Source of the DNA: Lawsonibacter asaccharolyticus
GTDB lineage: Bacteria; Bacillota; Clostridia; Oscillospirales; Oscillospiraceae
Length of the DNA: 64,000 nt
NCBI GenBank assembly: GCA_003112755.1
Contig: BFBT01000001.1
Location: 1,302,001 to 1,366,000 of the forward strand
Direction of reading: 5' to 3'
Shown: positions 2,753-13,803 of the stretch, piece by piece
Position numbering within the stretch: position 1 is the stretch's first letter
Layout of the letters: the number at the start of each line of letters is the position of its first letter
Made by a program: the position numbers and the translations under genes
Notes under the pieces: model-generated
Told to the model about the DNA's origin: nothing
Databases searched by the model: none
What the model saw: the letters and a program-made list of their open reading frames with translations, nothing else

Positions 2753-2797
2753 TGGAGCTGCTGCCCAGATTTGAACTGGGGACCTCATCCTTACCAA
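2753..2797. repeat. att: att site: 45-bp copy of the tRNA-Thr 3' end
   Basis: These 45 bases match the 3' part of tRNA-Thr(GGT) at 13728-13772 with one mismatch (G for A at the eleventh base), from the CCA end through the T arm into the anticodon stem. After 2797 the sequence diverges, so no whole tRNA is present. This is the junction expected when elements integrate in tandem into the 3' end of a tRNA gene. Confidence 0.85.
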
Positions 2798-2870
2798 CTG
2801 ATTGGGAGCCTTCCGACCCTTGATTTTTAACGCTTTGCGTCCATTTTCGCTCCAAAAGGATGAGGTCGGC

Positions 2871-2920
2871 GGCACTCTTTACTCTGTTGTTTCCGTATAG
2901 TCCTTTCCCCGTGTGGGTCA
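2871..2920. repeat. Degenerate third copy of an element end
   Basis: The segment starts GGCACTCTTT and ends CCTTTCCCC-GTGTGGGTCA, matching in order the stretches downstream of both integrases (2614-2655 and 13590-13631). Only one TGGGTCA heptamer remains and no integrase accompanies it. It looks like the scar of a third related element, or a rearranged left end of element 2. Confidence 0.4.
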
Positions 2921-2942
2921 TCTTGCCTCAAAATTTCCGCAT

Positions 2943-3614
2943 TCAGGACTCTCTGATATAATCCGTCCTTTGCTTGTCTGAATGAAACAGAACAGCGGAC
3001 AGCCACTCCAATTTTCGTCCTATCTGCCGGGCAAGAAAACCGACCAGAACAGCTGCAATGATGGTTCCCTCCCGCACACCGCTAAGTTTGCCCTGCAAAC
3101 AAACCGATAGGCCGGCTGCAATTACGGTCATGGACACGTCAAACACAACCTTTGCTACCCCGAACTCCATTTTTCTTCGATAAACTACTGCACGCACAAA
3201 CGATTCTCCTGGCAGCATGACTACATCAGCAATCACTTCCAAAAAGACACCCACACTCAACACCAGACACCCAATCAGCAAGAATGTGACCTGCCCCCCA
3301 TAAGTTTGAGGTCGGACACCCTTCATCACCCACAGTCCAAAATCAATAAAATAGCCAAAGGCAATGGATACCGGCACCTGAAGCCAATGTTCTGGTTTGA
3401 ACTGATTTCTTAAAATCAACAGCTGGGCCGCAACGAGCAGCAGGCTAAACAGAATTGTAAATTCCCCTAAGGACAGAGAAAACCTTAGGCTCAACACATA
3501 CGGGATTGCCGAAATAGGGGATGTGCCCAGATTTGCCTTGGTAATGAGCCCCACCCCCATGGAATTTATAAACAGACCCAAAAGAAATACTATGTATCGC
3601 CTTACCTTTTCCAC
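2943..3614 (-). CDS. YczE/YitT-like integral membrane protein
   Basis: A 223-residue hydrophobic protein with about five to six membrane spans. It begins MEKVRRYIVFLLGLFINSMG and carries the KANLGTSPISAIPY segment typical of the YczE/YyaS (DUF6198) membrane family, whose transport role is undefined. The start is GTG 3612-3614, seven bases after GAGGAGG. It is the last gene of the island's minus-strand run and is separated from the HD gene by a terminator-like hairpin, so it may be expressed separately. Base composition is visibly lower in GC than the chromosome right of 20 kb. No substrate can be deduced. Confidence 0.75.
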   Translation of the reverse strand: MEKVRRYIVFLLGLFINSMGVGLITKANLGTSPISAIPYVLSLRFSLSLGEFTILFSLLLVAAQLLILRNQFKPEHWLQVPVSIAFGYFIDFGLWVMKGVRPQTYGGQVTFLLIGCLVLSVGVFLEVIADVVMLPGESFVRAVVYRRKMEFGVAKVVFDVSMTVIAAGLSVCLQGKLSGVREGTIIAAVLVGFLARQIGRKLEWLSAVLFHSDKQRTDYIRES

Positions 3615-3679
3615 GGACCATCCTCCTCAACAAACAAGAATCCAATTTTTCCGTCCCTGTCCCGCTCAATTCTGAGCAT

Positions 3680-3716
3680 AAAAAGGCATCCCCGGACATT
3701 TTTTCATGCCGGGGAT
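3680..3716 (-). terminator. Terminator downstream of the HD-domain gene
   Basis: ATCCCCGGC and its complement form a stem around a short A-rich loop. On the minus strand it is followed by CCTTTTTATG, giving a canonical rho-independent form. Confidence 0.7.
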
Positions 3717-3762
3717 AAAACAGGGCCATTTAATGATTCTCTCTGCCGGTATTATATTGCAA

Positions 3763-4323
3763 TCAGGATTTAGCTTTTTGCAGCCCCCAGACCGAGTTTT
3801 CAAACACGAACATATCCAGCTTTCGGACAAAATTGGACTCCACGGTTTGATAGGACTTTTCCCCCTCAAAAGAGTGTACCGCTATGAGATGCACCAGTTC
3901 GTCAGGCAGGCCCGCCTCGTGGGCGATAACCGCACCGGAGAGGGGATGCCGGAGCAGTTGATAATTCCGGCTGTGGCAGACCTGATTATCCACATGGGCA
4001 AATTCCGTCAATTTCCCAATATCATGCAGCAGCGCCCCTGCCACCACCAAATCCCGGCTAACCGGCACATGGTTTTGCCGGAAATATTTTTCCTGTTGGG
4101 CAAACGCCTGAATACACGCATCGGTCACGTCCCGGACATGCTCCACCCAAGTCACCGGACATTCCATCCAATTCAGGGTAACCGGACATTTTAAAATTGA
4201 CTCCCAGTCCCAGCCACCCCGCTGCGCCGCCAATCTCATGGCCCGCTGCGCCTTTTGCCGCAGCGACCCATCCGCGATGCAGGCAAATTGGGGAAAGAGT
4301 TCTTCCAGTTCATTATCTGTCAT
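3763..4323 (-). CDS. HD-domain phosphohydrolase-like protein
   Basis: A 186-residue soluble protein with an HD-superfamily metal site: H62 (WVEHVRDVT), the H100-D101 doublet in ALLHDIGKLTEF, and further His residues at HPLSGAVIAHEAG. Such proteins hydrolyse phosphate esters or nucleotides; the substrate here is unknown. The ATG at 4321-4323 is chosen because AGAAGGATAGAT precedes it; longer in-frame extensions upstream read as low-complexity and run into a hairpin. It follows the metallo-hydrolase gene after that hairpin and may be read through from the Tct operon. Confidence 0.75.
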   Translation of the reverse strand: MTDNELEELFPQFACIADGSLRQKAQRAMRLAAQRGGWDWESILKCPVTLNWMECPVTWVEHVRDVTDACIQAFAQQEKYFRQNHVPVSRDLVVAGALLHDIGKLTEFAHVDNQVCHSRNYQLLRHPLSGAVIAHEAGLPDELVHLIAVHSFEGEKSYQTVESNFVRKLDMFVFENSVWGLQKAKS

Positions 4324-4340
4324 ATCTATCCTTCTCTCTT

Positions 4341-4370
4341 GCGGGGGCCGTCCGTCTGGACAGCCCCCGC
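4341..4370 (-). terminator. GC-rich hairpin between MBL hydrolase and HD genes
   Basis: GCGGGGGC and GCCCCCGC with an inner GTCC/GGAC extension form a strong stem in the 56-base gap. There is no long T-run on the minus strand, so it may attenuate or protect mRNA rather than terminate fully. Confidence 0.55.
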
Positions 4371-12414: not shown

Positions 12415-13546
12415 ATGGCAAAGAAGCGGGCCAACGGCGAGGGAAATATCAGAAAAAGGAAAGATGGCCACTGGGAGGGCCGGTACACCACCAGATACGA
12501 CTCCAAGACCGGCAAGCGGATCATCGGCAGAACCCAGGCGGAGGTCAAGGAAAAACTCAAGAGGGCGCTGGAGGAGACCAACGGTCTGGATGTCAGCAGA
12601 GCGGCGGATGAGTACACCGTAGCAAGCTGGCTGCGCACCTGGTATGAGCTCTACGCCAAGCCCAGCGTGCGCACCGCCACGGCCAACCGCTACCAGCTGA
12701 TCATCGAGCAGTACACGGTTCCCCGCATTGGGAGCATCAAGCTGAAGAGGCTGACCACCCGGCACCTGCAAAAGCTCTACAAGGAGTTATTAGAAAGCGG
12801 CAGAATCCACATTGGAAAGAAGCAGGGCAAAGGGCTCAGTATCACTACTGTCCACAGCATCCACCTGATGCTCCACGCCGCTCTGGACCGGGCGGTGAAA
12901 GAGCGCCTCATTCCCCGGAACCCCTACGAGGACTGCATCGTCCCAAAGCCCCGGAAGCTTGCTCTCCCCAGAGCAGATGGGAGCCTACCTGGAAGCCGCA
13001 CAGCGGCGGGGCCTGCTACCAATATTCTATCTGGAGCTGGTCTGCGGTCTGCGGAAGGGGAAACTGGTGGCCCTGCGGTGGGACGATCTAGATATTCAGT
13101 AGCGGACGATCTCCGTTACTGAGCAATATGTCCGCAACCCGGACGGTTCTCTGGAAGTGACCTGGCCCAAGACAGAGAACTCCGTGCGGCTGGTATCCAT
13201 CCCACAGACAGCGGTGGATCTGCTAATCCAAGAGCACGGCAAACACCCGGACAGCCCCTACCTGTTCCCCTCTCCCCTGACTGGAGAGATGTACCACCCG
13301 GACAGCGTGGTAAACCTCCACAAGAAGATCCTGAAGGACGTCGGACTGGAGCATTTCAGATTCCACGATCTCCGTCACACCTTCGCCACCACAGCCCTGC
13401 AAAACGGCGTGGACGTGAAAACGGTCTCCTCCATGCTGGGACACTTCGATGCCGGCTTCACCCTGCGCACCTACACCCACGCCACCCGGCAGAAGCAGGA
13501 CGAAGCGGCCCAGACCATGGGAAACTTCATGGAGCAGGTCATGTAA
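12415..13546 (+). pseudogene. int: Tyrosine integrase pseudogene (element 2)
   Basis: Sister of the integrase at 1428 with the same domain order. It starts at ATG 12415 after AAGGAGGCGAG. Two lesions break it. Near 12960 (after PKPRKL) 11 bases are missing relative to int 1, shifting the frame to a stop before 13125. In the original frame a TAG at 13100-13102 follows DDLDIQ. The distal catalytic part is intact in frame from about 13157: K, HDLRHTFAT, GHFDAGF and nucleophile Tyr in LRTYTHAT, then the end at EQVM. It also lacks four codons near residue 38 relative to int 1. It cannot make a full recombinase. Confidence 0.9.
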
Positions 13547-13561
13547 GACAAAGAGAAAAAA

Positions 13562-13591
13562 CCGGACAGGAAGCACAAACTTCCTGCCCGG
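13562..13591 (+). terminator. Terminator-like hairpin after int 2
   Basis: CCGGACAGGAAG and CTTCCTGCCCGG pair (one mismatch) around six bases. It is the counterpart of the hairpin at 2585-2616. Confidence 0.6.
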
Positions 13592-13624
13592 CACTCTTTG
13601 CCCCTTTCCGGCCCTTTCCCCGCG

Positions 13625-13667
13625 TGGGTCACGGTGTGGGTCAGAAGGTTGACCCACATTTGACCCA
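13625..13667. repeat. Probable integrase arm sites (element 2)
   Basis: Two direct TGGGTCA heptamers (13625, 13637) face two TGACCCA heptamers (13650, 13661). It is the same layout as 2649-2692, but the right arm has diverged between its heptamers. Confidence 0.55.
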
Positions 13668-13694
13668 CACCAAAAAATCAAAATTCGCAACAAA

Positions 13695-13726
13695 AAGCCC
13701 TCAAAAACTTCAGTTTTTGAGGGCTT
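13695..13726. terminator. Bidirectional A/T-flanked hairpin beside tRNA-Thr
   Basis: AAGCCCTCAAAAACT and AGTTTTTGAGGGCTT form a 15-bp stem just past the tRNA CCA end. On the minus strand it would end the tRNA transcript; on the plus strand it would stop transcription from the integrase. A related hairpin lies at 2722-2752. Confidence 0.65.
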
Positions 13727-13727
13727 C

Positions 13728-13772
13728 TGGAGCTGCTACCCAGATTTGAACTGGGGACCTCATCCTTACCAA
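13728..13772. repeat. att: att site within tRNA-Thr
   Basis: The 3' 45 bases of tRNA-Thr, repeated with one mismatch at 2753-2797. With that copy it brackets the 11-kb island. Confidence 0.85.
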
Positions 13773-13803
13773 GGATGCGCTCTACCGACTGAGCTATAGC
13801 AGC
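13728..13803 (-). tRNA. tRNA-Thr(GGT)
   Basis: 76 bases with encoded CCA; anticodon loop TTGGTAA gives GGT. It is the last gene of the 5S-tRNA run and the integration target of the two elements to its left, whose insertion preserves the tRNA sequence. Confidence 0.95.

Follow-up and report, generated by a model that had tools for sequence, protein, structure and literature searches.

The window analysed here is a 64,000-bp stretch of the Lawsonibacter asaccharolyticus genome (C1:1302001-1366000 of 4.28 Mb; positions without a prefix are those of the window). Next to a tRNA-Thr(GGT) gene it holds the segment E1 (2798-13772), which contains a predicted operon for uptake and degradation of a carboxylate. 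From its anatomy, E1 is very probably a decayed integrative and mobilizable element (IME), now an island of the cis-mobilizable type (CIME) in the 3' end of the tRNA gene; two more elements, E2 and E3, also decayed, stand in tandem with it. The initial annotation had proposed a catabolic genomic island at this position. This is supported, with the corrections that the island survives as a relic whose integrase is broken, and that GC content alone is no evidence for it. Other genomes of the genus are referred to below by their G numbers.

A repeat array at tRNA-Thr(GGT)

The tRNA-Thr(GGT) gene (13728-13803, minus strand), the apparent integration target, is the final gene of an rRNA/tRNA cluster. 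Its 3' 45 bp (13728-13772) form the attR-type repeat of E1 and recur, as the initial annotation had seen, at 2753-2797 on the plus strand with 1 of 45 positions mismatched; this second copy marks the boundary between E1 and E2. Homology extends leftward of the 45-bp repeats, over 112 nt at 88% and 103 nt at 89% identity, and blocks within and around the two integrase genes of the window are 78-91% identical. When the 735,463 bases of assembled regions were mononucleotide-shuffled once, no repeat match with nine or fewer mismatches appeared. By Hamming scan we see four copies in this genome (44-bp cores at C1:1277966, 1294209, 1304754 and 1315729), two of them left of the window (C1:1277966 with 2 mismatches, C1:1294209 with 6). 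Because of these two extra copies, the array is read as three elements in tandem, in the order tRNA-Thr, E1 (10,975 bp), E2 (10,545 bp) and E3 (16,243 bp), where lengths were obtained by subtracting core repeat positions. The tandem arrangement first suggested from the window is upheld by the repeats, an end arm, a mobilization backbone, the G012 locus and other cargo at the site, but it comprises three elements and four repeats, not two.

In keeping with a tRNA-associated island, direct repeats of the tRNA 3' end lie at both ends of E1 and the tRNA gene is intact. A tyrosine integrase would once have recombined the attachment site of the element with the tRNA gene, which would remain whole because the element supplies an identical 3' end. 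From left to right, E1 comprises the repeat, the end arm, genes for a DUF6198 protein, an HD-domain protein and a metallo-beta-lactamase (MBL)-fold protein, TctA, TctB, TctC, a 2-hydroxyacid dehydrogenase, an aldolase and a LysR regulator, then mobilization remnants, an integrase pseudogene and the tRNA-Thr gene. The left-end arm (2798-2920) matches repeat-adjacent DNA in G030 (G030:C23) at 89% identity over 123 bp. A remnant of a mobilization region (11972-12205, plus strand) aligns at 82.5% identity over 212 bp, from 11997 to 12205, with G026 DNA upstream of a MobL gene that was assigned by Pfam. Judged by these homologies, the aldolase-dehydrogenase-TctCBA operon sits between recognisable E1 ends.

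Decay of the three elements

The tyrosine integrase of E1 is a pseudogene (12415-13546, plus strand). Compared with five open relatives, it has lost 12 bp in frame at 12525 and 11 bp at 12959, and it contains one TAG. The E2 tyrosine integrase gene (1428-2549, plus strand) is frameshifted; an 11-bp deletion at 2498, again relative to five open relatives, shifts the reading ahead of its C-terminal tyrosine motif, which we take to be the catalytic one. A related integrase gene does lie left of each repeat copy, as the initial annotation had stated, but both are broken.

No E1 relaxase was detected by tblastn with five relaxase queries, three of them MobL proteins, the sole match being the relaxase of E2. 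This MobA/VirD2-like gene (260-1102, plus strand) is ended early by an in-frame TAG, and its homology to the G016 relaxase extends to 1240, past the stop at 1102. E1 does contain a conserved hairpin (12040-12067, plus strand), possibly an origin of transfer (oriT) or a regulatory hairpin. Within seven mismatches, the hairpin occurs at six places in the assembled regions (E1, E3, G010, G026 and two in G063), of which the other five are upstream of MobL homologues, and a scan of one shuffled control gave no matches. The fold in E1 was matched by only 1 of 200 shuffles. We treat this hairpin as a candidate oriT and nothing beyond that. A 29-bp stretch of E1 at 11722-11750 recurs, with 1 mismatch, in elements of G010 and G026 (L130 and L139).

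The intact integrase of a mobilizable element is lacking in both E1 and E2, and the expected relaxase and oriT are represented in E1 by the candidate hairpin only. The combination that E1 does show, of retained repeats, a broken integrase and no detected relaxase, is that of a CIME. Pfam scans of E1-E3 proteins, covering a subset of the open reading frames (ORFs), gave no type IV secretion or conjugation genes. E1 would not be expected to excise by its own integrase, and could move only if integrase, relaxase and transfer machinery were provided in trans, or by homologous recombination.

E3 spans C1:1278010-1294252 (L021:16010-20000 plus L022:1-12252). Its MobL is divided across two frames, and it has a pair of integrase genes of which the first copy is fragmented and the second open. 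Beside the third repeat lie genes for a LysR regulator, an enzyme like 5-enolpyruvylshikimate-3-phosphate (EPSP) synthase, a TAXI receptor, a DctM transporter and a DUF6198 protein, so that E3, by its predicted gene families, holds a second uptake-and-enzyme cargo. Just left of the third repeat (L021:12103-15741) are an HsdM N-terminal piece, AlbA_2 and RecG-C-like pieces, and a transposase-like helix-turn-helix (HTH) gene; these may be an older relic. PADLOC was applied to ten proteins from cargo and flanks, and its partial matches on the left side of the third repeat have no bearing on E1. Integrase matches of equal score at C1:78512-79303 and C5:24187-24978 represent either a duplicate element or a redundant contig.

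It is very improbable that E1-E3 are prophages or satellites rather than mobilizable elements. Their integrases do belong to the Phage_integrase family, and a phage-like element in G010 uses the same site with another integrase (29% identity). However, the E2 relaxase, the MobL match in E3 and the resemblance of the E1 hairpin to those upstream of MobL homologues all argue for mobilization. Phage structural families were likewise missing from the scanned E1-E3 proteins, and the one weak terminase-like HTH match falls outside the elements, left of the third repeat.

The tRNA-Thr site across the genus

At a threshold of E<=1e-90, the integrase was found in 14 of 40 other genomes of the genus, and 12 of these gave matches of at least 72% identity (partial only in G006). 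The remaining two gave only 49-50% matches, to a family seen beside tRNA-Met in G001. Several other members of the genus have open integrases at 72-87% identity, which adjoin the tRNA-Thr repeat where examined. An integrase-like gene lies within ~4 kb 3' of tRNA-Thr(GGT) at 12 of 13 scanned loci of the genus, a figure that is no prevalence because the genomes were partly picked by integrase or tRNA matches. Eleven of the 12 were identified by tblastn, and the twelfth, in G019, by Pfam as an integrase of another family; G012 is the sole case of the 13 with no integrase-like gene near the tRNA. In three genomes outside the genus, no integrase was found within ~1.5 kb of tRNA-Thr. Sibling integrases (53-56% identity) lie beside tRNA-Pro(CGG) genes at L117 and L122.

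The initial annotation had looked to relatives with other cargo, or with an empty site. The former were found in G063, G016, G030, G007 and G010, with cargo families read from selected large ORFs only. G063 carries, between two repeats, genes for an epimerase, GalT, GalK, a glycoside hydrolase of family GH36 and a major facilitator superfamily transporter; left of the next repeat it has GH94 genes and a solute-binding protein, in a segment whose far end lies outside the view. The G016 cargo includes GH36, GH13 and enzyme I of the phosphotransferase system, and that of G030 a hydrogenase, GltS, an aldehyde dehydrogenase, an aldo-keto reductase, a hydantoinase, MOFRL, an enolase and RpiR. Taken together, these three genomes hold galactose, alpha-galactoside or glycerate/hydrogenase genes at the repeat. 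In G007 we see a type III restriction-modification (RM) system, also recognised by PADLOC, with M56, ABC, VanZ and CAP genes. G010 has phage genes and genes of unknown type at the site, and G026 genes of unknown type.

G012 is syntenic with the window genome, sharing TrmO and one more gene on the left and several genes on the right, and its tRNA-Thr locus has no second repeat, no integrase match, no operon and no close aldolase or TctC. The island is thus absent from this locus, although the locus is not cleanly empty. TrmO was tried as a general synteny marker and rejected: in the three relatives where both genes lie on one contig, it neighbours tRNA-Thr in G012 alone (at 24 kb) and not in G007 or G011.

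The operon, its origin and known parallels

The gene families named in the initial annotation (aldolase, dehydrogenase, TctCBA, hydrolase, LysR) were confirmed. On the minus strand lie genes for a DUF6198/YczE-like membrane protein (2943-3614), of which E3 has a counterpart; an HD-domain hydrolase (3763-4452), whose homologue in G021 and G035 adjoins the pair of aldolase and dehydrogenase genes; a B3-like MBL-fold hydrolase (4380-5228), which at 159.4 of 240 bits is under the curated NCBIfam cut-off for subclass B3 metallo-beta-lactamases; TctA, the large membrane subunit of a tripartite tricarboxylate transporter (TTT; 5231-6742); TctB (6739-7380); the solute-binding protein TctC (7385-8395); a D-2-hydroxyacid dehydrogenase (8422-9405); and an HMGL-like aldolase (9418-10515). 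A LysR-family regulator is divergent (10585-11544, plus strand). The aldolase is nearest to 4-hydroxy-2-oxovalerate aldolases, which include its nearest solved relatives (PDB 1nvm and 4jn6), but unlike these it scores below the NCBIfam equivalog cut-off (179.7 of 286 bits), and its partners are a D-2-hydroxyacid dehydrogenase and a TTT. Going by these families, TctCBA would import a carboxylate, the dehydrogenase would oxidise a 2-hydroxy acid to the 2-oxo acid and the aldolase would cleave a 4-hydroxy-2-oxo acid, probably under LysR control.

Among 36 other genomes of the genus, aldolase matches of 84-87% were found in four (G021, G035, G009 and, in part, G019), a fragment in G005, and matches of 55-63% in five (G008, G026, G025, G027 and G033). 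The partners of the aldolase-dehydrogenase pair vary: a different TctCBA (28-34% identity) in G021 and G035, a GltS-like symporter and a 77% LysR in G009, and a DctM-type transporter in G025 and G026. TctC itself was matched at E<=1e-60 in only 1 of 63 other genus genomes, at 43% identity, and, in a sample from across the order, at E<=1e-90 in none of 393 other genomes, a weak negative given the few candidates scored per genome. The initial annotation had named the same operon in the same place, free of repeats or integrases, in most relatives as the observation that would count against an island. This was not seen, and none of the ten aldolase-bearing regions from relatives (6 to 20 kb each) contains the tRNA-Thr repeat at up to nine mismatches. 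An integrase match is present in 2 of the 10, in G026 and as a degenerate piece in G021. The latter (C7:516-1015, or L057:516-1015) is ~7 kb from the dehydrogenase of its own pair.

The G026 match lies on a 6.2-kb contig (L063, G026:C156) that in reverse complement reads integrase, tRNA-Met-like repeat, transporter, dehydrogenase, aldolase, LysR and the start of a second integrase. This aldolase-dehydrogenase operon, with a predicted tripartite ATP-independent periplasmic (TRAP) transporter, has an E1-like layout at another tRNA, on a contig that is possibly misassembled since both of its ends lie inside integrase genes. Its cargo is 86% identical to G025 over 4,783 bp, and neither the tRNA-Met-like repeat nor an integrase match was found in the G025 region.

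Composition was compared against uncurated ORFs at least 200 aa long. GC content is 52.7% over 2798-12414 and 62.3% over 20.5-64 kb, so the lower GC relative to the right-hand chromosome that had been pointed out is real, but the 16 genes left of the array (C1:1242001-1273200) are likewise low, with a mean of 53.3%. GC and codon use were rejected as signs of a foreign source, since the operon falls inside the range of the host blocks and these left-flank genes are equally low; they speak neither for nor against transfer. Elsewhere in the window, at 39001-41000, there is a 2-kb fall to 42-45% GC, flanked by 62 and 66%.

This unremarkable composition would also suit old chromosomal DNA caught between two separate insertions, with the repeat at 2753 as a secondary site, and the aldolase-dehydrogenase pair is indeed found at other loci in some genus members. 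We nevertheless consider this origin very unlikely: the 2753 repeat is adjoined by an element-type end arm, a mobilization backbone lies on the operon's other side, G012 is syntenic on both sides without the operon, and the aldolase-bearing regions of relatives lack the repeat.

We infer that the operon arrived as cargo of E1, and not by later insertion into E1. An operon inserted after E1 had integrated, which would not have travelled with the element, is unlikely but has some points in its favour: aldolase-dehydrogenase modules pair with different transporters and, in the fetched regions, lie mostly outside such islands; the tRNA-Met cargo of G026 has its 86% counterpart in G025 DNA free of repeat and integrase matches; and the sequence of E1 keeps no record of timing. 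On the other side stand the catabolic cargoes of G063 and G016: the elements that hold them have an open integrase from the family of the E1 integrase, so that cargo carriage seems normal for this family.

Several observations weigh against E1 as a mobile catabolic island that brought in the operon. The operon could have entered an already resident relic. Several elements at the tRNA-Thr site have non-catabolic or unknown cargo. The empty-site comparison rests on G012 and not on a strain of the same species, and G012 is not a clean empty site because 24 kb of its own genes (TrkH, a KdpD-like kinase, MatE and others) intervene between TrmO and tRNA-Thr. Of 24 overlapping host blocks, 5 deviate in GC and codon use as much as the operon or more. 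Finally, public sequences that come without context include TctC relatives of 60-83% (full-length) and 92-100% (partial).

The E1 findings indicate that the cargo of small mobilizable elements in gut Clostridia extends beyond resistance and defence genes to operons for carbon use. A tRNA-Thr gene ending an rRNA operon is a named site at which to look for such operons in related genomes, and the conserved core, end arm and hairpin are ready probes for metabolic differences among gut strains. More speculatively, and on balance doubtfully, sibling tyrosine-integrase element families of this genus at tRNA-Thr and tRNA-Met, possibly also tRNA-Pro, may serve as a common shuttle for catabolic operons that can be exchanged. 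An aldolase-dehydrogenase core would be combined with varied carboxylate transporters (TTT, TRAP, perhaps GltS), and tRNA arrays would be a main route to new carbon sources for the species.

Catabolic cargo in a tRNA gene is familiar from ICEclc and other catabolic integrative and conjugative elements; ICEclc itself is large and self-transmissible. E1 differs from ICEclc in being only 11 kb, with no conjugation machinery among the scanned E1-E3 proteins. A literature search, judged by paper listings, found nothing on this tRNA-Thr site or genus. For metabolic TTT operons as tRNA-island cargo the initial annotation knew of no description; excerpts of one study do report that predicted islands of low GC in Rhodoplanes hold 11 TTT receptor genes, there without tRNA or integrase, and put the receptor expansion down mainly to lineage-specific expansion (PMC5994714). 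Excerpts of another link TTT to no island (PMC8767351). According to the available text of PMC5704250, IMEs with tyrosine integrases use tRNA 3' ends and decay to CIMEs that keep their att sites, while newcomers stack on the side of the target gene. The anatomy of E1-E3 fits both the decay and the tRNA-side stacking, whereas the IME cargo described in that text consists of antibiotic, arsenic and mercury resistance, RM, toxin-antitoxin and bacteriocin-like genes, and catabolic operons recur here.

The closest known parallel, going by excerpts of PMC3146451, is the set of ssrA islands of Dehalococcoides (vcrABC), 15 of which have no integration module. Shared with E1-E3 are the tandem islands, the repeats of an RNA-gene 3' end, the integration module at one edge and the exchangeable catabolic cargo. 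The differences are that the Dehalococcoides target is ssrA and the cargo reductive dehalogenase genes, whereas here, in gut Clostridia, the target is tRNA-Thr(GGT), the integrases are of the tyrosine type and the cargo consists of carboxylate or sugar genes. In short, the novelty lies in the site and the genus and in finding this cargo at a tRNA together with integrases, while the type of mechanism is already known, and the array exemplifies an established route by which bacteria acquire metabolic abilities.

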